From contig JAFGON010000003.1 in assembly GCA_016926475.1 (NCBI GenBank), positions 1-35,780 on the forward strand: DNA of 35,780 nt, in the 5' to 3' direction. Made by a program: the position numbers and the translations under genes. Source of the DNA: a candidate division WOR-3 bacterium. GTDB lineage: Bacteria > SDB-A. Of this stretch, positions 114 to 31,179 are shown one piece after another; position 1 is the stretch's first letter; each line of letters starts with the position of its first letter. The notes below the pieces were generated by a model, which was given only the letters and a program-made list of their open reading frames with translations, did not search any database and was not told where the DNA came from.

Positions 114-473
114 ATGGAAAAATTGACGAAAGAGACTTTTAAAGAAAAAATTTTCAATTACGAAAACGACGGAGATATGGTTTTATTAAACCCTTTGCCT
201 TGTATAATCGACTTTTACGCTGATTGGTGCGGTCCCTGCAAAATGGTTCACCCGATACTTGAAGAACTCTCCAGAGAGTATGATGGTAAAATCAACATTT
301 ATTCTGTCGACACGGAAGACCAACCTGAACTGGCATCGGTTTTCGGAATTCAGAGCATACCCAGCATTCTTTTTGTTCCCAAGGGTGAAAAACCCCAAAT
401 GGCTGTTGGAGCTCTGCCGAAAAAAACTTTCCATCAAGCTATTAAAGAAGTTCTCAAGGTAGATGCCGCTTAA
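114..473 (+). CDS. trxA: Thioredoxin
   Basis: A 119-residue thioredoxin, a cytoplasmic dithiol reductant. The active site WCGPCK is at residues 38-43, preceded by the typical FYADWC strand. The cis-proline loop IQSIPSILF follows, and the C-terminal segment has the usual beta-beta-alpha pattern. The length is normal for the family (105-120 residues) and no signal peptide is present. A cysteine at residue 30 is additional to the catalytic pair. The end overlaps the start of the HAD gene by 11 bases in another frame, which suggests translational coupling. The family is certain; whether this is the main housekeeping thioredoxin cannot be judged from one window. Confidence 0.95.
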   Translation: MEKLTKETFKEKIFNYENDGDMVLLNPLPCIIDFYADWCGPCKMVHPILEELSREYDGKINIYSVDTEDQPELASVFGIQSIPSILFVPKGEKPQMAVGALPKKTFHQAIKEVLKVDAA

Positions 474-1242
474 AAAAGTTCTCGGAGTAGATCTTCACGG
501 AACGTTGCTGGACAAGTTTTGGAAGATTGACTCCGGAATCGCCCTTAAAATTTCCAAAATTCTTTTCGATTTGAAAAGGGATTTCAGAATTTACGTCTGT
601 TCAGGAAACGATCTAGAATTTGCCAAAGAACATATACCGGCTGAAATATTCGAGAACACCGACGGTTTGATTCTTGAGACAGGATGCGTTTACAGCGATG
701 GAAAAACGGAAAAAATACTCGTTGAAGAAAAACTCGTAAAAGCCGCCAAAGATCTTGAGCTCAGGCTCAGAAGAGCCCAGCTAAAAGGGGTTAAGTATTT
801 TGCCCGAAGACTCTGCACCGTGAGTCTGTTCACGCGGGATGAATTTTCAGGAGAAGACCCGGAGTGTGTTTTCGACCAAATCTGCGAATTTCTCGATAAA
901 GAAGAGGAAAAACTTTTTTACGCGACGCATTCCGATGTCGCCGTTGATGTTGTCCCTGAGGGTTACGACAAATTCACGGGTTTGGAAACCGTAGCCCGGG
1001 GCCGTGAAGTTTTTGCCATCGCCGATTCTTACAACGATGTCACCCTTCTTGAAAAGTCTGATTATTCGTTCGCGCCCAAAAATCTTTCCCCAAAAGCATT
1101 GAGAATTCTAGAAGGCAGAAAAAAAATTTCTTTTCTGACGAAAACTCTGGAAAAAGGAGTACTTTACACAAGCGGAAAGTATTACGGAGATGGGGTGTCG
1201 GAAATCCTCGAAACCATTCTGCTCTATTCCAAAAATTCCTGA
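463..1242 (+). CDS. HAD-superfamily (Cof-like) phosphatase
   Basis: A 259-residue haloacid-dehalogenase hydrolase of the Cof/sucrose-phosphatase type, which typically removes phosphate from sugar phosphates or related metabolites. Motif I is at residues 10-14 as DLHGT. Motif III is the lysine of GYDKFTGL, and motif IV is ADSYNDVTLL. The region between motifs I and III is large enough for a C2-type cap. The oddity is His12 where the family consensus DxDGT has the second aspartate (the general acid/base), so the activity may be altered. It is not the short KdsC-type phosphatase, although kdsA lies nearby. It overlaps the thioredoxin gene upstream and the convergent phosphatase gene at its 3' end by 19 bases. 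The substrate is unknown. Confidence 0.85.
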   Translation: MPLKKVLGVDLHGTLLDKFWKIDSGIALKISKILFDLKRDFRIYVCSGNDLEFAKEHIPAEIFENTDGLILETGCVYSDGKTEKILVEEKLVKAAKDLELRLRRAQLKGVKYFARRLCTVSLFTRDEFSGEDPECVFDQICEFLDKEEEKLFYATHSDVAVDVVPEGYDKFTGLETVARGREVFAIADSYNDVTLLEKSDYSFAPKNLSPKALRILEGRKKISFLTKTLEKGVLYTSGKYYGDGVSEILETILLYSKNS

Positions 1243-2270: not shown

Positions 2271-3104
2271 ATGAGCGAAAAAAAAGTAAAAGTAGGAGAC
2301 ACAATCTGTGGCGAAAAGGGTATTTTCGTCATTGCCGGTCCTTGTGTGATAGAGGACGAAAAAATTGCTTTCAAAACAGCTGAAATTCTGAAACGGGCAT
2401 GTTTCAATCTCGGGGTAGGGCTCATTTATAAATCGTCTTTTAGCAAGGACAACAGAAGTTCTTCCGAGAATTACAGAGGGCCGGGGCTGGAGAACGGCCT
2501 CCAAATTCTGAAAAAGGTAAGGGAGGAATTCGATGTCCCCGTTACTTCGGACATTCATTCCGCTGAACAGGCGCTTCCGGCCTCGGAAGTTTTGGACCTT
2601 TTGCAAATTCCGGCTTATCTATGCATGCAGACTTCGATCGTCGAAGCGGTCGCGAGAACCAGCAAACCAATGAACATAAAACACGGTCAATTCATAGCTC
2701 CGGAAAACATGAAATTCCCTGTGGAAAAAGCGCAAAACGCAGGAAATTACGAAATCATGCTGACCGAGAGAGGTTATACCTTTGGTTACAACGATTTGAT
2801 CGTTGACCCGAGAAGTTTTTTCGAGTTGAACAAAATTGGATATCCTGTTATTTTTGATGTCACTCACAGCGTCAGGAGGTACGGTATTCCTAGCGCTAAC
2901 CCGTTGGGGGGGAAAAGACAGTATATGCAAACCCTGGCGAGAGCCGCTACCGCTTCTGGTATCGACGGACTATTCGTTGAAGTCCATCCCAGCCCGGAAA
3001 AGGCTTTGTGCGATTCTTCGAGCCAGCTCAACGTGTTTGAATTTGAAGAATTTATCAAACCATTGATAGAAATACACAATTTGATTAAAGGCGGATTAAA
3101 ATGA
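2271..3104 (+). CDS. kdsA: 3-deoxy-8-phosphooctulonate synthase (Kdo-8-P synthase), metal-dependent class
   Basis: A 277-residue cytoplasmic enzyme that condenses phosphoenolpyruvate with arabinose 5-phosphate to Kdo 8-phosphate, the committed step toward lipopolysaccharide Kdo. Recognisable blocks, from the ATG at 2271, are IAGPCVIE, KSSFSKDNRSS, DIHSAEQ, QIPAYLCMQTS, KHGQF, TERGYTFGYNDLIVD, DVTHSVRR and EVHPSPEKALCDSSSQL. Cys25 in AGPC marks the metal-dependent class (as in Aquifex); the other expected metal ligands are His199, Glu237 and Asp248, all present. An in-frame TTG at 2217 would add 18 residues but sits in the -10 box. There is no clear Shine-Dalgarno site before 2271. The 3' end overlaps the transaldolase-CBS gene by 4 bases (ATGA), implying coupled translation. 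Confidence 0.95.
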   Translation: MSEKKVKVGDTICGEKGIFVIAGPCVIEDEKIAFKTAEILKRACFNLGVGLIYKSSFSKDNRSSSENYRGPGLENGLQILKKVREEFDVPVTSDIHSAEQALPASEVLDLLQIPAYLCMQTSIVEAVARTSKPMNIKHGQFIAPENMKFPVEKAQNAGNYEIMLTERGYTFGYNDLIVDPRSFFELNKIGYPVIFDVTHSVRRYGIPSANPLGGKRQYMQTLARAATASGIDGLFVEVHPSPEKALCDSSSQLNVFEFEEFIKPLIEIHNLIKGGLK

Positions 3105-4123
3105 GAATTTTTCTTGACTCTGTAGATTTCAAAGAGATTGAAGATGCTTTCGGCTTGGGAATTTTAAAGGGGTTGACCACTACTCCAACTTTTATGCACA
3201 GAAAAGGAATAACTGATATAAACAGCGCGATAGTTAAACTTTCCGGCATGGTCCCTGAGCTTCACGTCGAAGCCCTTGGAAAAACAAGCGACGAGATAAT
3301 AGAAAAAGCGCACGAACTTCTCTCTTTGCCACTGAGCAGAAAACCGGTTTTCAAGATACCAATTTCAAACCACTCCATAAAAGCTTGCACGAGGCTCGTA
3401 TCCGAGGGCAATACGGTAAACATTCATCTGGTATACACTCTCAACCAAGGCTATTTGGCAATGGAAGCCGGAGCTTCTTATGTATGCCCTCTTGTGGGGA
3501 GGCTTCACGACCAGGGGCACGACGCTGTTAGCCTCGTCGCCGACCTCGTCGAAACAACCGAGAAATACGGATATGATACCCAAATAATGGTTTCGTCCGT
3601 CAGGCACGCTGAACACGTAAGGCAGGCTCTTCTAGCAGGGGCACACGTATGCACTGTGCCTTATTCGGTTCTCATGAGCCTCAGCGAAAATTCACTCACT
3701 TCAGCCGGGACGAGTAAATTTTACGAACATACCAAGTTGATGACTTTAAAAGTAAAAGACGTAATAAGGGATTACAATCCCATCTGCAAAAAATCCGACA
3801 TGCTGGTAGATGCACTTGTGAAAATGACTGAATCGCGATTGGGAGCGATATCGGTTGTGGGTGAAGACGGAAAACTTCTCGGCATATTCACAGACGGCGA
3901 CCTGAGAAGAATGATCAAGGAAAAGGATAAATCCGTAGTCAACTGTAAAATGTCCGATTTTAACTACACCAAACCCGCGACTATATCAGCTAATGCGTTG
4001 CTTTACGAAGCCGTCAACTTCTTTTCAACACATGAATTCGACAATCTCATAGTCGTGGAGAATGAACTGCCTGCGGGAATTCTTGACATACAAGATCTGG
4101 TCAAACTCGGACTCATAGGTTAA
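3101..4123 (+). CDS. Transaldolase/fructose-6-phosphate-aldolase domain fused to a KdsD-type CBS pair
   Basis: A 340-residue two-part protein. Residues 1-220 form a TalC/FSA-type barrel: Asp6 in MRIFLDSVD, GLTTTPT at 24-30, and the Schiff-base lysine Lys85 in FKIPIS, at the same number as E. coli FSA. Residues 225-340 are two CBS modules closely resembling the tail of arabinose-5-phosphate isomerase (KdsD/KpsF), including GIFTDGDLRR at 261-270 and a final DLVKLGLIG. Pocket residues differ from FSA: Asn28 is Thr, Thr109 is His, Tyr131 is Leu, and the Gln59 position is Glu. The start codon overlaps kdsA by 4 bases. Established: KdsD pairs a SIS isomerase domain with such a CBS pair. Inference: this protein makes, salvages or gates arabinose 5-phosphate for KdsA. 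Domain calls are firm; the reaction is unproven. Confidence 0.85.
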   Translation: MRIFLDSVDFKEIEDAFGLGILKGLTTTPTFMHRKGITDINSAIVKLSGMVPELHVEALGKTSDEIIEKAHELLSLPLSRKPVFKIPISNHSIKACTRLVSEGNTVNIHLVYTLNQGYLAMEAGASYVCPLVGRLHDQGHDAVSLVADLVETTEKYGYDTQIMVSSVRHAEHVRQALLAGAHVCTVPYSVLMSLSENSLTSAGTSKFYEHTKLMTLKVKDVIRDYNPICKKSDMLVDALVKMTESRLGAISVVGEDGKLLGIFTDGDLRRMIKEKDKSVVNCKMSDFNYTKPATISANALLYEAVNFFSTHEFDNLIVVENELPAGILDIQDLVKLGLIG

Positions 4124-9237: not shown

Positions 9238-10902
9238 ATGACCATACAAAAATATCACGTAAATCTCGACGATTCAAATCTTTATTCAGCGGTTTTGTCC
9301 CTGAAAAACATGAAGAATCCCAAGGATACTGATGTGAGAAAAATACTGAGGAAATATCCAAAGCAAGGGCGAGGATTTTTTGCCAAAGCAGAGATCTTTA
9401 AACTTTACAGAAAACTGGCACTTGAAGGGAGCATAGAAAGAAACGCAGCCCTGGAGAAGATACTCGTCACGAAGCCAACCAGATCTTCATCCGGTATTTC
9501 CGCCGTCACTGTAATGACAAAACCTTTTCCGTGCCCTGGAAAGTGCCTGTTTTGCCCCGAAGAAAAGGGAATGCCAAAAAGTTATATATCGAGCGAGCCT
9601 GGATCGATGAGGGCGAAACAAAGCAATTTTGACCCTCATGGGCAGGTTTTGAGCCGACTCACCGCATTAAGCGAGACGGGGCACAACACCGGAAAATCAG
9701 AGATTATTGTACTTGGGGGCAGTTTCAGTTCTTATGAGAAGAGATACAGAATAGATTTCACGACAGGAATTTATGAAGCCCTTAACGAATTCAAGACCAA
9801 TGAGGGGTTGCAAGAATCCCATGCTAATGAGCAAAACAAGCTCCGAGGCTCAATGGATTCTCTTGTTTCGGTTCAGAAAGAGAATGAAAATTCACCGACG
9901 AGGTGCGTGGGACTCTCTTTTGAGACGAGGGTCGACCTTATAGACAGAGACGAAACTGTTTTTATGAGAAGGCTAGGCGCCACAAAAATCCAGATAGGCG
10001 TCCAGTCTCTCGACGAGGATGTTTTAGCCCAGAACAGAGTAGGTTTCAAAACCAAAGACATAACCAGGGCATTCTCCTTTTTGAGGGGAGCTGGTTTCAA
10101 GATTCAGGCGCACGTAATGGTCAATCTGCTGGGGTCAAATCCGCAAAAAGACATAATGACGTACAAAAATCTTTTCCAAAGTCCTCTATGCCCGGACGAA
10201 GTCAAAATATACCCTGTCGCGGTTGTTTATAACAGCCCACTTTATTCGAAATACGCAAGGGGTGAATACACTTACTATAAACAGAGGGATCTCCTTGATA
10301 CTCTTTCGAAAATGCTGTGCGCGACTCCAAACTACTGCCGAGTTAACAGAATAGTCAGGGATATACCAAAAAACTGCACGGTGGGGGATTCACCTCCCAA
10401 CAATTTAAGGGAAAAGGTTGAAGAGATTTTAAGGGACTCCGGCAGAAACGACTTGAATATAAGGAACCGCGAAATTAGAAGGAATAAAATTTTCGGAGAA
10501 ATAAAAATTAATGTCACCTCTTATTTCAGCGGCGTTTTTGAGGAAAAATTCATCGAGTGCGTCGACGGAAAAAATAAATTGACGGGTTTTCTAAGGCTTT
10601 CTCTGGTTCCCGATGCTTGTCGCCAAATCTCAGAAAACCAAGGATTCACTTTAGATGAATTGAAAAATTCGGCGGTGATTAGAGAACTTCATGTCTATGG
10701 GGAGCCTGCTCAAATAGGAGAATACGATTTTTCAAAGAGTCAACACCGGGGGATTGGAAAGATGCTTGTCAGGGCAGCTCGCAGAATTTCCAAGGAGAGA
10801 GGGTACAGGGTTTTATCTGTTATTTCATCCGTAGGTACGAGGAATTACTACCGAGGGATTGGATTCAAAGACGGAGATATGTATCAGCATATGCCCATTT
10901 GA
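9238..10902 (+). CDS. Elp3-like radical SAM/GNAT protein (tRNA wobble uridine carboxymethylation)
   Basis: A 554-residue homolog of Elongator catalytic subunit Elp3, about the length of the yeast protein (557). Elp3 uses a radical SAM domain and an acetyl-CoA-binding GNAT domain to form cm5U at tRNA position 34. The N-terminal region contains VTKPTRSSSGISAVTVMTKP, then the iron-sulfur motif CPGKCLFC (Cys99, Cys103, Cys106), followed by SSEPGSMRAKQSNFDP as in other Elp3 proteins. The cluster spacing is CX3CX2C, shorter than the CX9CX2C of yeast Elp3. The GNAT domain shows RELHVYG (482-488), QHRGIG (502-507), SVISSVGTRNYYRGIGF and a final MYQHMPI. It is divergent from the Trm9-like methyltransferase. 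No other Elongator subunits are seen, as is usual for bacterial and archaeal Elp3. Confidence 0.92.
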   Translation: MTIQKYHVNLDDSNLYSAVLSLKNMKNPKDTDVRKILRKYPKQGRGFFAKAEIFKLYRKLALEGSIERNAALEKILVTKPTRSSSGISAVTVMTKPFPCPGKCLFCPEEKGMPKSYISSEPGSMRAKQSNFDPHGQVLSRLTALSETGHNTGKSEIIVLGGSFSSYEKRYRIDFTTGIYEALNEFKTNEGLQESHANEQNKLRGSMDSLVSVQKENENSPTRCVGLSFETRVDLIDRDETVFMRRLGATKIQIGVQSLDEDVLAQNRVGFKTKDITRAFSFLRGAGFKIQAHVMVNLLGSNPQKDIMTYKNLFQSPLCPDEVKIYPVAVVYNSPLYSKYARGEYTYYKQRDLLDTLSKMLCATPNYCRVNRIVRDIPKNCTVGDSPPNNLREKVEEILRDSGRNDLNIRNREIRRNKIFGEIKINVTSYFSGVFEEKFIECVDGKNKLTGFLRLSLVPDACRQISENQGFTLDELKNSAVIRELHVYGEPAQIGEYDFSKSQHRGIGKMLVRAARRISKERGYRVLSVISSVGTRNYYRGIGFKDGDMYQHMPI

Positions 10903-15731: not shown

Positions 15732-17213
15732 CTATTCGAGCACTGTGAACCTGAAGGAAGAATCAAAATCTCCGTAACTTATTTTCATTAGATACACTCC
15801 TGACCCAAAATCGTCCAGATGCAGCGCATAAGAATTTTCACCTTCTGTGAGCTGAATGGTCTGAGCGGGAATGACTGTTCTCCCTGATAGGTCGAATATC
15901 CTGACTTCAGCACCGCTTGTTGTCATTGAGCAAAGAAACTTCAGAACAGGGTTGAATCTCGTCACAATAAACGAAGTGACCTGAAGGTTCAGGGGATTTT
16001 CATAAATTTCTTCGACAGGATTGTGCGCCAGACCTATGTCCACTATTATTGTGTCAACTACTGTTAAATCGTATGGAATTTCCTGGGGCAAAAGATACCA
16101 ACCGTTGTAAGTGCCTCCCCAGCCCATGTTCAAGTGGTAGTAATCATTTGTGTTGTAGCCGTCTATTACGAAATTGTGCCCTGCTGTGAGAGTGGAAGTG
16201 AGTGCGGCGATATGCGCGGGTTTTCCGTCTTTCATGTTTTGCGAGAGCCTTTCATAAAGACTGTCGGAGAGAGTGTCAAGGGGATGGCAGTCGGTGTATC
16301 CGAATTTTATGTAGGCTTGATAAGCTTGAGTTGCACCGAAAGTTCCTGAGATGTTGTAGGTGTAGACTTGTCTCATCGCGGCTCCGCAAGCCCAGGTCAG
16401 AGCGACTTTGTCCTGGTTTGTCACCTGAATATCATTGTTGTAGTGGCTCTCAAGGGTGTCCAAGTACACGTTGAGTTGAGACCAGGATGGGAAACCTCTT
16501 GAAGACCAGTCGTCGTCAATCCAATAATTTCTTCCTCCGTATGAATGATAGTAGTCGTCCGAATCGGAAAAATGGGTCGAATGAATGCTCTCCTGAAAGT
16601 TGACTATCATGCCCATTGCGACAGCGGGACACCCTGCGACGCATCTGGTCCCGCCTTGAACAGGGTCAGTTGGGCACATATCGTTGTAAGGTGAGTTCTG
16701 AGTCCAGTTTGATTCAAGCCAGCCTCCCGTAGGCGTGGACCCGGAAGGGGGCCATTGTTCGAAATCCGGGGATAGACGTCCTTCGAGTAAACCTATTCTC
16801 CATGATTTGAAACGTTCTCTTACATGTCCTGGTATCATTTCCAAGCAGGATATTTTTTTCTCAATGTCGTATTTTACCAAGTCGAAAAGAGGGTTCGAGT
16901 TTTCTTCTCCTATTCTGCATCCATTTTCGTAAGAATAGGCAAGTATAGGGAAAAGTCGGTCTTCGGCTGGAACTATCATGTAACCGGTCGGCTTCAATTC
17001 AAACACATACGCGAGAGTCTGATCGTTTAAATCCGACTCGAGAACGTATGATGTGTCAATGACTCTTGAGTCAGTCATATCATCTTGTGACATTTTAAAC
17101 AGAACAAGGGATTCGGCTGAATTTTGGTCCACAAAACCCGCAATGAGATTTGCGGCGGAAAACAAAAAGAGAATAACGGCTGCGATCTTTGAGGAGAAGA
17201 GATAAAGTTTCAT
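15732..17213 (-). CDS. Secreted C10-family (streptopain-like) cysteine peptidase with C-terminal sorting-type domain
   Basis: A 493-residue exported protease. A signal peptide occupies about residues 1-26 (KIAAVILFLFSAANLIAG). A propeptide of the Spi/streptopain type follows, then a papain-like catalytic domain (about 160-400) with nucleophile Cys195 in RCVAGCPAVAMGMI. The catalytic histidine is His346 in GHNFVIDGY, followed by YYHLNMGWGG, closely matching streptopain's HAFVIDG and WGWGG. Residues 408-493 form a beta-rich tail with VRIFDLSGR, GSGVYLMKISYG and FRFTVLE, typical of type A C-terminal domains that direct proteins through the type IX system. The ATG overlaps the M48 gene's stop by 4 bases. 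It is the last gene of the run led by the CHASE2 cyclase and converges on the ABC operon with 7 bases between. Confidence 0.9.
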   Translation of the reverse strand: MKLYLFSSKIAAVILFLFSAANLIAGFVDQNSAESLVLFKMSQDDMTDSRVIDTSYVLESDLNDQTLAYVFELKPTGYMIVPAEDRLFPILAYSYENGCRIGEENSNPLFDLVKYDIEKKISCLEMIPGHVRERFKSWRIGLLEGRLSPDFEQWPPSGSTPTGGWLESNWTQNSPYNDMCPTDPVQGGTRCVAGCPAVAMGMIVNFQESIHSTHFSDSDDYYHSYGGRNYWIDDDWSSRGFPSWSQLNVYLDTLESHYNNDIQVTNQDKVALTWACGAAMRQVYTYNISGTFGATQAYQAYIKFGYTDCHPLDTLSDSLYERLSQNMKDGKPAHIAALTSTLTAGHNFVIDGYNTNDYYHLNMGWGGTYNGWYLLPQEIPYDLTVVDTIIVDIGLAHNPVEEIYENPLNLQVTSFIVTRFNPVLKFLCSMTTSGAEVRIFDLSGRTVIPAQTIQLTEGENSYALHLDDFGSGVYLMKISYGDFDSSFRFTVLE

Positions 17214-18512: not shown

Positions 18513-20918
18513 TTATTTTTGGGTGAATTCATACGCTCCCGTCCAATCCTGTGGTGGCGGATTTGCGATGAAATTTTCGCATCTTTTGAGCATTACCCGA
18601 GACGGGCCGTCTCCGGGATACAATGACAGTATTTTGTCGAATAGAGCAGACGCCCCGGTAAAATCCTTGGCAAAGTACGATCTCAGGGCATCCTCGTAAA
18701 GAGTTACCGCAGAGCTCTGTTCTCGTTTGAAAGAGCCTTTCCTTCCAATAAGTTCGAAAATTCCGACTGGTTCGGCTTTTCCTTTGACTTTTATCAGGTC
18801 GACTTTTCTCGTCTCGAAATCGTTTTCAACGGCTTCTTTTGTTGTGTGTGAGATCATGATTTCTGTTCCATAAAACTTATTTATGCCTTCCAGGCGTGAA
18901 GCTAGATTTACAGAGTCTCCAATTATTGTATAATCCATTCTTTTGTCGGATCCGAAATTTCCAACGACCATAAAACCGGTGTTCAGTCCCATACGCATTT
19001 TCATGGGCGGTTTACCTTCCTTCTCCCATTTCGTTCTCATTTCAGAAAGTTTTTCTTGCATTTCCAAAGAACAATGACATGCTTTTTGAGCGTGATCTTT
19101 CAGATCGAGAGGCGCGCCCCAGAAAGCGATTATCGCGTCTCCTTCGAATTTGTCAACGATTCCTTCGTGCCGTGAAATTATCGAGCACATTGCGGAAAGA
19201 TATTCGTTTAAAAGCGCTGACACGGCTTCAGGGGACATGGTCTCTGAAATACTCGTAAAACCTGCGATGTCGGAAAAAAAGGCCGTCATGAATCTCCTTT
19301 CTCCTCCGAGTTTGAGCTTATCTGGGTTCTGCAGCAATTCGTTGACTACTTTGTTGGAAAGATAGTAACCGAAAGCGTTTCGGACAAAGTTTTTTTCTTT
19401 GACTTCACGAAAAAAAGCTATGAGGGTTCCAGAGATATATGAAAAAGTCAAAGACAGGGGCACGGAAGAGAAGTCTAAGAAAGTTTTGCGGAAAACGTAA
19501 AAAGAGGAAACTATGGCGGCGTATAGGAAAAGAGAGAATAAAAAAATTGACAAACTCTTTTGAATTTTGAATTGAAATCCGATGATAGAACCTGTCAGAG
19601 ACATAATGGATATCAGGATGAAAACCAGGATAGGGTCGTAGTTGGCTTTGAGAAACCCTCCAGTCATTAAATTGTCGAGAATTGAAGCGTGTATAAAAAC
19701 TCCTCCGTCTTTTTCTCCAAAGGGATTCGGTCTTATGTCGTACAAACCAGGCGCTGTGCCGGCAACAATGACGATTTTGTCTTTAAATGCGTTGGGAGAG
19801 ATATAATTCTTTTCAAAGTTTGATATTGCGCTTTCAACTGATGAAAACTCGCTTTCCTTGATCGAGGAAATCACCTCGTCGTCGATTTCCTCAAACATCT
19901 GCTCTATAGAGTCATAGGTGAATCCGTATATGTCGTTTAGGTGTTTGTTAAAGAGGGCGAAATCAACGCCGGAGATCTCTTTTCCCTCATTTATTGACTG
20001 TTTTAATATGTCGTAAGCTTCAAATAGTCCGAGGTAATTCTGGTATTCAAGGTATAGTTCTTGAATCTGTCCTGAAGAATAGAAAGACGCTGATTTCAAA
20101 ACAGCCGCAACAGTATAATTCTCGTAAGACCTGTACATTTCACCTTTAAAATTCACAAGAACTTCGCCGTTTTCATCAAGATGTATAACCCTTTTGGAGT
20201 TCTCGGAAAAAATGAACAAACGGTCTTGGTCCAAGACGATTGAATCGGCTCCATTTGTCAGCAGAAATGCAGCAAGAGAGATATGGGGGTAATAGCTTCC
20301 GTTGATTTTGAATAAAATTGGAGATTTTCTGTAAATACCGTCTTTGTCTGGAGTAATATTGACTCCTCCGGACATGAAGACACTTTTGGATATTATCTCC
20401 AACGGGGGTTGCGAATAATCGTAGTCGGTGAAATTCACGGAACTATCTTTAAGCGAAAGGGTGATTTTTTCTAAATTTTCGTTGGATGAATCTGAAAAAA
20501 AATTCTTGTGCTTGGAAGCCATAAAAGCGACTACGACTTTGCCGGATCTCGACGCGGCGAGAGAAAATACTGAATCATCCGAAGATCCATACACCGAAGG
20601 TTCTGTGTAGAGAACGTCGAGTATTATCGCTCGTGCTCCTCCGGCGCTCAGGTAATCAATAAGATCCGCCGTCATTTTTCGCGGCCATGGCCAATAGATT
20701 CCGTCTTCAGCCATTATGTCCAGGGATTTCTGGTCGATAAAAAAGAAAACTATGCTTTTTTCAGGTTTGCCCGAAGAGAAGAGGAAAACAGTTCTTCTTA
20801 TGTCAGAAGAGAAAAGTTCCAGCTCGGAAAAGAACCCTAAATAAAAGAGTGTGTAAAATATCAAAACCCAGAAAAAACCAATTCCGGCAGGAATTATTAT
20901 TTTTTGTTTCAATGTCAT
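18513..20918 (-). CDS. CHASE2-domain class III adenylate cyclase
   Basis: An 801-residue membrane-bound receptor cyclase. An N-terminal helix (about 9-30) is followed by a large extracytoplasmic CHASE2 sensor (about 35-410), with the typical FFIDQKSLD and WPWPRKMTADLIDYL blocks and GGVFIHASILDNLMTGG before the membrane. Helices follow at roughly 415-505, then the cyclase domain. Metal-binding aspartates are Asp550 (FFSDIAGF) and Asp594 (FEGDAIIAFWG), 44 residues apart as in the class. Lys590 and the threonine of YTIIGDSVN fit adenine specificity, and the N and R of GDSVNLASRLEG are present. The last 70 residues look like a single TPR-like helical unit. The predicted output is cAMP in response to an external cue. 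It heads an operon with three exported-protein genes. Confidence 0.92.
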   Translation of the reverse strand: MTLKQKIIIPAGIGFFWVLIFYTLFYLGFFSELELFSSDIRRTVFLFSSGKPEKSIVFFFIDQKSLDIMAEDGIYWPWPRKMTADLIDYLSAGGARAIILDVLYTEPSVYGSSDDSVFSLAASRSGKVVVAFMASKHKNFFSDSSNENLEKITLSLKDSSVNFTDYDYSQPPLEIISKSVFMSGGVNITPDKDGIYRKSPILFKINGSYYPHISLAAFLLTNGADSIVLDQDRLFIFSENSKRVIHLDENGEVLVNFKGEMYRSYENYTVAAVLKSASFYSSGQIQELYLEYQNYLGLFEAYDILKQSINEGKEISGVDFALFNKHLNDIYGFTYDSIEQMFEEIDDEVISSIKESEFSSVESAISNFEKNYISPNAFKDKIVIVAGTAPGLYDIRPNPFGEKDGGVFIHASILDNLMTGGFLKANYDPILVFILISIMSLTGSIIGFQFKIQKSLSIFLFSLFLYAAIVSSFYVFRKTFLDFSSVPLSLTFSYISGTLIAFFREVKEKNFVRNAFGYYLSNKVVNELLQNPDKLKLGGERRFMTAFFSDIAGFTSISETMSPEAVSALLNEYLSAMCSIISRHEGIVDKFEGDAIIAFWGAPLDLKDHAQKACHCSLEMQEKLSEMRTKWEKEGKPPMKMRMGLNTGFMVVGNFGSDKRMDYTIIGDSVNLASRLEGINKFYGTEIMISHTTKEAVENDFETRKVDLIKVKGKAEPVGIFELIGRKGSFKREQSSAVTLYEDALRSYFAKDFTGASALFDKILSLYPGDGPSRVMLKRCENFIANPPPQDWTGAYEFTQK

Positions 20919-21045: not shown

Positions 21046-23325
21046 TTGATAGTTTTCTTTTTATGCCAAACTTTCGCCGACCCTGTACCGTGCGGAGAAA
21101 GCATATTTTTCACAGACGAAAAAAGAGAATCTCTTTACATTCTGTCTGAAGAGACCGAAAGGGAAATCTTTCGCGGATCGGGCTGCGGCAGGTTTGTCTT
21201 TTCATCTCCTTCCGGAACGAAGATTGGCTTTAAATTCATTGACGAAAATGGCATGCAGACCCCCATGGTCTATGATGTTTACAAAAACGAATTTTCAGAA
21301 CTTTCCCATCCCCGCACTGTCGTAGGGCAAGTTTCTTTTACACTTGACGACAGACCAGCGTATACAACTGAAAACGAGCTTATAATTGACCCTTTGGGAG
21401 AAAATATATCGGTGTATTTGGGCTTATACGCCAATATCTGCCCAATATCACCCGACGGTAGCAAAGCTGTTTACAACGATTTAAACGACGCTCTATGGAC
21501 GGTTAATACATCGAGTGGAGAAAAGAGAAAAATTACTCCCGATGGCTCGGGTTTTTGCTGCCCTGAATGGTCAAAAGACGGAAACAGACTTCTTTTTACA
21601 AGCCTCGAAGGCGGGATATTCGTATGGAAAAGTTTGAACTCAGCCCCAGAATTCGTAGGAGAGGGAATCAATCCCTCTTTTTCCCCGGATGGCGAAATGG
21701 TGGTTTTTGAGAAAAATTTTCATCGGAGCGAAATTCTCGTCAATTCGGATATATACCTCTGGCTTTCAAGTGAAAAGCAAATTTTCAGAATCACAAACAC
21801 CGACAGTGTAAAAGAGTCTTGCCCCGTTTTTACCGGGGAGCGCGAAATAGCATATTTAATTCAAGAAAAAAATTCCATGGTTTTCGCGAAAATTGAAAAT
21901 GCTCAACTTGAAACAATCAGGGTTGAAGAACTGCAAATCCCCGAGAAAGAGGGAATTTACAAGCCGGTCGAATGCCATGGGAAAGGGGACTCTCTTGACG
22001 TGCCTTACATTCATCAGGTCTATGACACCCCTGATTGGTTCAACGGTCATTGGGCTTGCGCTCCTTCAACGGCGACAATGGCAATAGCCTACTACTGTCT
22101 TCTTCCAAGCTGGAGGTGTCAGTGCTCATCTCCATATTCACACGAGAGCCTTTTCGGGAGGTATATATGCGAGAGATACATGTTCAACGAAACCGATTAC
22201 AATCTTTCAGCAAACGATCCAGCCGGGACGCCGGCTTACGGAGGTTACGGTTTTATGTGGAACGGGACTTCTTCCCCTCATACTACGATGGCTCAGTATT
22301 TTTTAAATCACGGTTTAAGCTCTTCTGGCGATGATTCTCCTACTTTCAGCGAAGTCGTAATTGAAATCGGAAGCGGCTTTCCTCATTCGTTATGCGTCGG
22401 GCTGACTTCTTCGGGACACTTGGTTCTCGCCGTCGGCCAAGTTCTTACCTGGCACACTCTCATTTTCAACGATCCTTACGGAGATAAAAACACACCGGGT
22501 TACCCGAGTTACGACGGGAAATTTGTCAGGTATGACTGGCCTGGATACAACAACGGTTATCAAAACCTGAACCAGGTCTATTGGACAGTGACATCGAGAG
22601 GAAATTTTCCAGCGACAAGCGATACTTTGGTCGATGACAGACATTTATCAAGCGGTTTTTATCTTAACGCAGAGAATCCTTCTTCAATGAGATTTTGGAG
22701 AGACGCTCTTTCGGGTTTTCAGGGGCACAGCTGGTGGACTTATTCTACGGAATGCTCCATAGACACTTGTTACGCCACATGGACACCTGAGCTGGCAAAC
22801 CCCGGAAATTACCAAGTCGCGGTTTATATACCTCCGACAAACGCTTTGGCGTCATCGGTGCGCTACCAGATTCACCATTCGACAGGCGTAGACACGGTTC
22901 ATGTAGATCAGTCTCAATATTCGGATGAATGGATTTCACTCGGCAGTTATTATTTTGAAGACGCCGGAGGCTATTTGTATTTAGGAGATGCGACAGGAGT
23001 TCAAGGACAGAGGATTGCTTTTGACGCCGCTGTGTTTTCAGAGCAGATTTCTTTCGTCGAAGAAGATGAAAGTGTCAACCCGCCTGTCGTCTGGGCAAAT
23101 TTTCACGGAGATTTTGTCGTCATAAAATGCTGCAGTGCGGGAAATCAATCTTTTCCGGTATTTATTTTTGACCTTTCGGGAAGACTCGTTTTTTCAGAAG
23201 AAATCCAATTAGATCAATCCGGTGTTACAATGAGCCAAACATCAGGTCTATCCGACGGCGTGTATTTTCTAAAAGTTTATAACCGTGGGGTAGAAAATAT
23301 CATCAAATTATTAAAAATAAAATAA
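21046..23325 (+). CDS. Secreted C39-like cysteine peptidase with beta-propeller, golvesin-type and C-terminal sorting-type domains
   Basis: A 759-residue multidomain exported protein. After a short hydrophobic leader (IVFFLCQTFA) come TolB/WD40-like blades to about residue 300, with units such as SPDGSKAVYND, WSKDGNRLLFTS and FSPDGEMVVFEK. A C39-like papain-fold domain follows: DVPYIHQVYD, Cys338 in HWACAPSTATM, His458 in SSGHLVLAVGQ and IFNDPYGD. Residues about 525-665 resemble the golvesin carbohydrate-binding-like fold, with ATWTPELANPGNYQVAVYIP, VDQSQYSDEWISLGSYYF and IAFDAAVF. The last 85 residues form a type A sorting-like tail with VFIFDLSGRLVFSEE and SDGVYFLKVYN. It is divergent from the cyclase-protease operon. 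TTG at 21046 is the first ordinary start codon, but it is 15 bases from GGAGG; an ATT at 21037 is better spaced. Confidence 0.8.
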   Translation: MIVFFLCQTFADPVPCGESIFFTDEKRESLYILSEETEREIFRGSGCGRFVFSSPSGTKIGFKFIDENGMQTPMVYDVYKNEFSELSHPRTVVGQVSFTLDDRPAYTTENELIIDPLGENISVYLGLYANICPISPDGSKAVYNDLNDALWTVNTSSGEKRKITPDGSGFCCPEWSKDGNRLLFTSLEGGIFVWKSLNSAPEFVGEGINPSFSPDGEMVVFEKNFHRSEILVNSDIYLWLSSEKQIFRITNTDSVKESCPVFTGEREIAYLIQEKNSMVFAKIENAQLETIRVEELQIPEKEGIYKPVECHGKGDSLDVPYIHQVYDTPDWFNGHWACAPSTATMAIAYYCLLPSWRCQCSSPYSHESLFGRYICERYMFNETDYNLSANDPAGTPAYGGYGFMWNGTSSPHTTMAQYFLNHGLSSSGDDSPTFSEVVIEIGSGFPHSLCVGLTSSGHLVLAVGQVLTWHTLIFNDPYGDKNTPGYPSYDGKFVRYDWPGYNNGYQNLNQVYWTVTSRGNFPATSDTLVDDRHLSSGFYLNAENPSSMRFWRDALSGFQGHSWWTYSTECSIDTCYATWTPELANPGNYQVAVYIPPTNALASSVRYQIHHSTGVDTVHVDQSQYSDEWISLGSYYFEDAGGYLYLGDATGVQGQRIAFDAAVFSEQISFVEEDESVNPPVVWANFHGDFVVIKCCSAGNQSFPVFIFDLSGRLVFSEEIQLDQSGVTMSQTSGLSDGVYFLKVYNRGVENIIKLLKIK

Positions 23326-30303: not shown

Positions 30304-31179
30304 TTAGAAGATTTTCAATTTCACGGCTGCTTTTTGGGCGAAACGCGATGCGTGACGCAAAAGAATGTTGAACGGAGATTCTAAATATTTGTCCCACTTC
30401 AGGCTCTTTTCGAGAAAAACATTTTTACCTGTCAGCTCGAACAGTTTCCATGTGAGAAGAACATGATATTTGTGATAGTCTAAATTGGCAATCGGTCTAT
30501 GTTTGAAAAGAGAGTAGTACGTCCAAAAACCCGTGTCGTAAAGGCTGATATTATTTTCCAGTGATAAAACCAACTCATCTTTTAATGTATGAAATTGCCT
30601 GTCTTTAATCAACTCGCATACATCGAACAGACCTAATAAAGAAACAATCATACCATTCAAAACCAGACTTTTGGGATCGGATGCATATTCTTCCAGAGCG
30701 ACCGAGCCGTCAGGAAACTCTGAACGGACTCCTCCTTGTTTTACGGTATAAAAGAACGGTTTTATGGCTTCAGAAGAAGCTTCCAAAAAACTGACTTGTC
30801 CTGTAATTTCATAAGCTCTTGTGAAAACAGATGAAGCCCTTCCCTGCGCCATCGCCGAAATCCAGGGCGGTTTCAAATTCATATGACCGAGAGGAAAATC
30901 GAATTCAAAAATCAAACCTTTTTTGCAGGATTTTCCTTTTTTAAAAAGCCATGAGCTGATTCTGATGAATTCGTCGAGGTGTTTTTGATTTTTTTTCAAA
31001 AGGTATACCTGCAAGTTGTAAAGTGCGTAATGGCAGATGAATATTACATTGTATTCAACCCCCCATGAGTATTTATACATCGGAATGTTTTCCGAGTCGA
31101 AAACGAAGTTTTCGTACATACCTTCTCTGACGTCTTTGAAACCCAGATCAATGTGATAAGGCGTGGGTAAATTACTCAT
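30304..31179 (-). CDS. D-glucuronyl C5-epimerase-like protein
   Basis: A 291-residue protein matching the C-terminal catalytic (alpha/alpha barrel) region of glucuronyl C5-epimerases, which turn glucuronate into iduronate within a polysaccharide chain. Conserved-looking blocks are PPWISAMAQGRASSVFTRAY (104-123), ALEEYASDP (161-169), LVLNGMIVSLLGLFD (172-186), LYDTGFWTYY (213-222), DYHKYH (234-239) and a late KWDKYLES. There is no signal peptide or membrane helix, so it would act in the cytoplasm or be part of a cytoplasmic assembly. It lacks the N-terminal domain of animal enzymes. Gene spacing (24 bases after radC, one base before the cyclase-like gene) shows an operon. It could instead be a non-epimerase relative; the substrate is unknown. 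Confidence 0.75.
   Translation of the reverse strand: MSNLPTPYHIDLGFKDVREGMYENFVFDSENIPMYKYSWGVEYNVIFICHYALYNLQVYLLKKNQKHLDEFIRISSWLFKKGKSCKKGLIFEFDFPLGHMNLKPPWISAMAQGRASSVFTRAYEITGQVSFLEASSEAIKPFFYTVKQGGVRSEFPDGSVALEEYASDPKSLVLNGMIVSLLGLFDVCELIKDRQFHTLKDELVLSLENNISLYDTGFWTYYSLFKHRPIANLDYHKYHVLLTWKLFELTGKNVFLEKSLKWDKYLESPFNILLRHASRFAQKAAVKLKIF

Follow-up and report, generated by a model that had tools for sequence, protein, structure and literature searches.

The fusion gene at the center of this report encodes a protein in which a transaldolase/FSA (TAL/FSA) barrel is joined to the paired CBS modules of KdsD, and it lies directly downstream of kdsA in the window, a 35,780-nucleotide stretch of DNA from a candidate division WOR-3 bacterium (contig JAFGON010000003.1). 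Kdo belongs to the core sugars of the bacterial surface, and KdsD and GutQ are taught as the only enzymes for the step that feeds its synthesis, from pentose phosphate to D-arabinose 5-phosphate (A5P). The fusion probably is a non-orthologous replacement of KdsD that would supply the five-carbon precursor of Kdo to the linked KdsA, with a barrel that uses Lys85 to form a Schiff base and with its CBS pair as the control. The product is most likely A5P. A preliminary description had proposed the fusion as an alternative source of the Kdo precursor, and both the absence of KdsD and the mutual exclusion between the two genes support this idea.

The two-part architecture suggested in that description is borne out by matches to Pfam, NCBIfam and the PDB. 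Pfam TAL_FSA covers residues 3-225 (1.3e-33, 117.1 bits, gathering score 27), placing the protein in the TAL/FSA family, and two CBS stretches are recognized as well (Pfam, 1.7e-15). The FSA equivalog TIGR00875 (NCBIfam) yields 146.6 bits, far below its cut-off of 245.95, so that the protein falls outside FSA in the strict sense. The KpsF/GutQ model of NCBIfam matches with 65.3 bits, but only over residues 214-322, equivalent to model positions 153-260, its tail; consistent with this, the Pfam scan of the fusion protein shows no SIS isomerase domain. The C-terminus reads GIFTDGDLRR ... DLVKLGLIG. In an AlphaFold2 model (mean pLDDT 92.4), the best PDB folds for the barrel are the transaldolases 3r8r, 1vpx and 3s0c, with TM scores normalized by target length, and a fold search with the separately modeled CBS tail is led by the KdsD CBS pairs 4o9k, 3k2v and 3fna. 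In a profile comparison of the tail with the PDB, the top three of 46 matches are KdsD tails, as expected of a KdsD-type pair. By this profile comparison, the CBS pair is homologous to the KdsD tail. The fusion tails form one clade in a CBS tree, in which the placement of long outgroups makes descent from KdsD tails no more than a possibility. The barrels of the fusions, including six divergent ones discussed below, likewise group together, to the exclusion of the transaldolases sampled (support 100/100). The fusion is neither a chance event nor an assembly error, because full-length homologues are present in two congeneric genomes, two Scalindua and dozens of Bacteroidetes.

Table 1. Features of the kdsA-fusion region (positions in the window)
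Feature	Position	Strand	Basis or remark
HAD phosphatase (Hydrolase_3), upstream of kdsA	463..1242	+	similar HAD directly upstream of kdsA in L016
kdsA, variant subtype (KDNRS, LCMQT, NIKHGQF, THSVRRY)	2271..3104	+	
Fusion gene, TAL/FSA barrel + KdsD-type CBS pair	3101..4123	+	340 aa ORF; homologues
ATGA overlap, kdsA stop / fusion start	3101..3104	+	
(beta/alpha)8 barrel of TAL/FSA type, residues ~1-209	3101..3727	+	Pfam TAL_FSA, model, PDB folds
Asp6 codon, kept	3116..3118	+	
Thr28 codon (Asn in transaldolases, FSA)	3182..3184	+	
Glu57 codon, retained (as in transaldolases; FSA has Gln)	3269..3271	+	
Lys85 codon, family Schiff-base lysine position	3353..3355	+	present in 48/48 kdsA-type fusions, absent from 6/6 divergent ones
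His109 codon (Thr in transaldolases, FSA)	3425..3427	+	
Leu131 codon (Phe in transaldolases, Tyr in FSA)	3491..3493	+	
CBS module 1 (residues 218-273), contains TDGDLRR	3752..3919	+	Pfam
CBS module 2 (residues ~285-335), contains DIQD	3953..4105	+	Pfam

The stop codon of kdsA and the start codon of the fusion share the ATGA, with AAAGGCGG upstream, confirming the 4-base overlap seen earlier. The listed ORF of kdsA opens at TTG 2217, but the ATG at the position given in Table 1 is the likelier start. The earlier remark that kdsD is often found near kdsA holds for some Bacteroidetes, where the two are on the same contig within 1-2 kb, but not for E. coli, in which kdsD adjoins kdsC.

Elsewhere in the window are genes for a radical SAM protein with a Radical_SAM_C domain (9238-10902), which by eye is Elp3-like although encoded by a bacterium, a CHASE2-adenylate/guanylate cyclase protein (18513-20918), and a protein with a D-glucuronyl C5-epimerase C-terminal domain (30304-31179, 149 bits) that adjoins a very large cyclase/TPR protein. 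A streptopain-like Peptidase C10 protein (15732-17213) has a weak match to a Por secretion tail, and the end of a golvesin-domain protein (21046-23325) is similar to it by eye; these tails suggest a type IX-like secretion.

The genome that contains the window (2.15 Mb in 106 contigs, listed as 100% complete) encodes, besides kdsA, the Kdo genes kdsB (168 bits) and waaA (175 bits). A search of it with the KdsD family model finds only the tail of the fusion, and a profile search for SIS domains finds a single weak match of 25 bits, to a protein of 201 amino acids. A hidden SIS-type KdsD was also sought with TIGR00393 and PF01380 in this genome, in two Scalindua genomes and in the genome of locus L005; for the two sister genomes the search used PF01380 alone. 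Nothing was found beyond weak GmhA/PHI-like or GlmS-like matches. Two SIS proteins of 335 amino acids in the sister genomes score 31-34 bits; the G006 KdsD scores 95. A SIS-domain KdsD elsewhere in the window's genome, on which the idea of an alternative precursor source could have foundered, is not detected. A search for relatives among genome contigs retrieved full-length fusions from two genomes of Candidatus Scalindua, at 63-64% identity, and from one Bacteroidetes MAG (56%), in none of which a KdsD scores over the cut-off. The phylum of the window comprises four genomes; the fusion is present in three, all of one genus, and the fourth, of another genus in the same family, carries a canonical KdsD of 321 amino acids beside a KdsC-like HAD, and no fusion.

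This reciprocal distribution is not restricted to the window's own family. In 395 genomes of the Bacteroidetes class to which the fusion-bearing MAG belongs, taken from tables that carry no completeness values, the fusion occurs in 77, a KdsD match in 225 and a true kdsA in 289, the latter defined by an E-value below 1e-50, since weaker matches, at about 1e-30 to 1e-40, resemble DAHP synthases. Of these 289 kdsA-positive genomes, 213 have KdsD only, 66 the fusion only, four both and six neither (Fisher test, odds ratio 0.0017, p 8e-53, ancestry ignored). As these genomes are related to each other, the p value overstates the case; nonetheless, the same exclusion is found in three phyla when compared to nearby lineages. 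In the order of Scalindua (62 genomes), two genomes, both Scalindua, have the fusion without KdsD, 55 have KdsD without the fusion, five have neither and none has both. As the preliminary description had proposed to check, the same fusion is thus found elsewhere together with kdsA and in place of KdsD, in Bacteroidetes, in the Scalindua order and in the window's own family. The kdsA-type fusions are present in kdsA-positive genomes in 70 of 71 cases, the lone exception being at a contig end. With the fusion present alongside kdsA where KdsD is absent, the protein would work like KdsD without being a member of its family. What counts against a replacement of KdsD, as far as gene content indicates, are the four of 70 kdsA-positive fusion genomes that retain KdsD, and the six kdsA-positive genomes with neither gene.

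The genes around the fusion point in the same direction. In 27 contexts of kdsA-type fusions, the immediate same-strand neighbor is kdsA in 18 and a kdsC-like HAD in four more (22/27). The gene order is kdsA-fusion-kdsC in Bacteroidetes, whereas in Scalindua the fusion precedes kdsA, and kdsB is nearby in six loci. The L005 locus has the run kdnA-kdnB-kdsA-fusion-kdsC, in which kdnA and kdnB match the solved 8-amino-Kdo enzymes with 432 and 418 bits, and the HAD has KdsC as its best match. The KdsC-like phosphatase linked to the fusion scores 71 bits, against a cut-off of 208, and is thus divergent. With kdsA, kdsC, kdsB and kdnA/kdnB as its neighbors, the fusion belongs to a Kdo or 8-amino-Kdo operon. 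Given its position, the HAD upstream of kdsA in the window is a possible candidate for the Kdo8P phosphatase of this genus.

The residues of the barrel suggest that it is catalytic, but not an ordinary member of its family. Asp6, Thr26-Thr28, Glu57, Lys85, Asn107, His109, Cys129, Leu131, Arg134, Ser166 and Arg168 are invariant in all 48 kdsA-type fusions aligned. These thus have the Schiff-base lysine of the TAL/FSA family, and do not have its Asn28 and Thr109 pocket, as Thr28 and His109 are found in 48/48. By contrast, Asn, Thr and Phe occupy positions 28, 109 and 131 in all 18 sampled transaldolases, and Asn28 and Thr109 are also constant in B. subtilis Tal, T. maritima Tal and FSA. The alignment thus agrees with the first reading of the window's gene, in which Asp6 and Lys85 were kept and positions 28, 109 and 131 were changed to Thr, His and Leu. 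Six divergent fusions (L120-L125), from Bacteroidetes genomes without kdsA, have lost Lys85 to Arg (five) or Ser (one), and His109 and Arg134 are changed as well. They form long branches nested inside the Bacteroidetes fusions in the barrel tree, and adjoin genes for a PafA phosphatase and an M61 peptidase, in most cases along with DUF2911 genes; possibly, they represent a repurposed sensor or a decaying gene. Comparison of the 48 and the six shows that genomes with kdsA preserve the catalytic residues of the fusion, and that those lacking kdsA do not.

Three routes to A5P would fit these observations: isomerization or epimerization of a pentose phosphate, or the addition of glycolaldehyde to glyceraldehyde 3-phosphate. 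To our knowledge, free glycolaldehyde is not a high-flux metabolite, and as it is scarce and Lys85 is invariant, conversion of a pentose phosphate to A5P via a lysine imine is favored, with a net aldol addition second. The catalytic part would then be a re-tooled transaldolase/FSA barrel that acts via a Schiff base on Lys85 and interconverts a pentose 5-phosphate and A5P without free glycolaldehyde. Ribose 5-phosphate would be bound as an aldimine on Lys85, and its C2 epimerized either by proton transfer or by retro-aldol cleavage and re-addition. Arg134 and Arg168, on the phosphate side, are retained, and the donor side appears to be rebuilt by N28T, T109H, S129C and F131L. Positions 129 and 109 line this donor side, and their changes would therefore favor an imine with an aldose over the one that a transaldolase forms with dihydroxyacetone. 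Position 129 corresponds to Ser176 in TalB, and position 131, the Leu of the fusion, to F178. The CBS pair may act as a sensor as it does in KdsD, with CMP-Kdo or another late product of the pathway probably exerting feedback. Counting against the fusion as a KdsD replacement, a lysine Schiff base offers no obvious mechanism for a plain isomerization of ribulose 5-phosphate. We know of no enzyme that converts ribose 5-phosphate into A5P.

The fold itself can handle substrates of this kind. E. coli FSA cleaves A5P with a KM of 0.65 mM and a kcat of 3.6 per s (PMC6900487), and a study cited in that paper is quoted there as finding that the enzyme is more specific for A5P than it is for fructose 6-phosphate. 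FSA also forms A5P from glycolaldehyde and glyceraldehyde 3-phosphate and is termed an arabinose 5-phosphate aldolase, and the F178Y mutant of TalB also makes ribose 5-phosphate (PMC9947464), indicating that both C2 epimers of the aldopentose phosphate are within reach of the fold. The same activities speak for a different, though rather unlikely, mode of action, in which the fusion is an A5P aldolase running in the synthetic direction, the Lys85-enamine of glycolaldehyde adding to glyceraldehyde 3-phosphate, a reaction that E. coli FSA carries out in vitro, in a cell that feeds free glycolaldehyde. The invariance of Lys85, Asp6, Glu57, Arg134 and Arg168 accords with such an aldolase, but the affinity of FsaA for glycolaldehyde is too low for flux (PMC9947464), the Thr109 and Asn28 of FSA are replaced in the fusion, and no glycolaldehyde-producing gene was recognized in the conserved fusion neighborhoods.

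The coupling to kdsA seen in the preliminary description is confirmed, but the KdsA itself is of an altered subtype that was overlooked there. The linked KdsA passes the cut-offs for KDO8P synthase (TIGR01362, 315.1 bits, cut-off 314; a second model, 331.9 bits, cut-off 242). Nevertheless, in E. coli numbering, the fusion-linked KdsA from three phyla carry R120M, K139H and Q205R in 30/30 and A61D in 29/29 readable cases, while 20/20 KdsA from KdsD genomes, a sample of mainly high-scoring matches, are canonical (Ala61, Arg120, Lys139, Gln205). In place of the KANRS motif and Arg120, the linked proteins thus have KDNRS (29/29 readable) and Met120 (30/30). The main substrate contacts of N. meningitidis KDO8P synthase are Lys50, Lys55, Arg58, Lys133, Arg163 and His197 (PMC6650799), which we map to E. 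coli K55, K60, R63, K138, R168 and H202, and these are kept in both groups. A loss of the PEP-phosphate lysine from the linked KdsA was considered and rejected, since by exact numbering K139 is changed, and K138 and the five other contacts remain. With its contacts kept and its changes fixed, the linked KdsA retains the appearance of a KDO8P synthase, yet represents a separate subtype that accompanies the fusion; by sequence, the two would be either co-adapted or simply inherited together.

Fixed changes at conserved positions could also mean that the substrate of the linked KdsA differs from A5P. It is conceivable, if improbable, that the fusion makes an intermediate other than free A5P, through which it and the KdsA variant together, as a module, lead to Kdo. 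The fixed subtype and the divergent KdsC-like phosphatase would fit, as would three second, non-adjacent KdsA genes of fusion genomes (L169 8106-8915, L170 8312-9136, L171 6711-7559), all of which are canonical. Such a module is, however, difficult to reconcile with the kept contacts and passed cut-offs of the linked KdsA, with the ordinary nature of the downstream kdsB, kdnA, kdnB and waaA, and with two fusion genomes (G183, G222) in which no KdsD is detected although they also encode a canonical KdsA, an enzyme that would depend on A5P. For these genomes, the fusion would be the source of A5P, in line with the fusion as a KdsD replacement.

It is very unlikely that the fusion is an ordinary transaldolase or F6P aldolase with a CBS switch, merely near kdsA, in cells that obtain A5P from another enzyme. 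It does have a transaldolase fold, and is the only TAL/FSA-family gene of the window's genome. Yet, in Scalindua an ordinary transaldolase of about 220 amino acids exists besides the fusion, Asn28 and Thr109 are replaced in every kdsA-type fusion aligned, and the mutual exclusion with KdsD would be left unexplained. Least credible is a catalytically idle barrel that binds a sugar phosphate and regulates KdsA together with the CBS pair, for although the CBS pair and the tight linkage to kdsA would suit a regulator, Lys85 and the pocket are fully conserved in kdsA-type fusions and lost exactly where kdsA is missing, and the source of A5P would again lack an explanation.

In its fullest and more tentative form, the replacement of KdsD might amount to a self-contained second route to Kdo, in which a Lys85 imine of the barrel turns ribose 5-phosphate into A5P under KdsD-type CBS control, for use by a co-adapted KdsA, the whole having moved between phyla as a unit. 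About a quarter of the kdsA-positive genomes in the sampled Bacteroidetes class (70/289) carry the fusion, nearly all of them without KdsD, and it is also found in anammox Scalindua and in the small phylum of the window. If confirmed, the fusion would fill in a missing reaction in many genomes, by a new enzyme with a testable mechanism, in which one catalytic fold gave way to another and the CBS regulatory pair stayed. The bacteria that bear it would then escape inhibitors of KdsD, and the co-variation of KdsA provides a direct handle on the mutual adaptation of two consecutive enzymes.

The enzymatic role, a source of A5P for Kdo, is already known; the fold, the architecture and the coupling to a KdsA subtype appear to be new. 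In the open-access literature (subscription papers lay outside the scope), no description was found of the fusion, of a replacement of KdsD in Bacteroidetes, or of the KdsD CBS pair with CMP-Kdo. The fusion resembles KdsD/GutQ/KpsF, which combine a SIS domain and a CBS pair, in total length (about 320-340 amino acids), in occupying the slot next to kdsA or kdsC, in its co-distribution with kdsA and in its homologous CBS pair, but has a TAL/FSA barrel in place of the catalytic SIS domain. The closest match of its tail in both sequence and fold is the CBS pair of Methylococcus capsulatus KdsD (4o9k; 1.3e-25, TM 0.86, 30% identity), a structure we take to be a CMP-Kdo complex. FSA (FsaA) shares the family and the catalytic lysine and is documented to cleave and form A5P, but differs in Gln59, Thr109 and Tyr131, and is a free-standing barrel for which no Kdo role is reported in the papers cited here. 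To the transaldolases of B. subtilis, T. maritima and T. acidophilum (3r8r, 1vpx, 3s0c), the barrel is similar with a TM of 0.94-0.95 and 33-34% identity, and it has Lys85, Asp6, Glu57, Asn107, Arg134, Ser166 and Arg168 in common with this subfamily, from which it is set apart by the changes N28T, T109H, S129C and F131L, by its CBS tail and by its linkage to kdsA.
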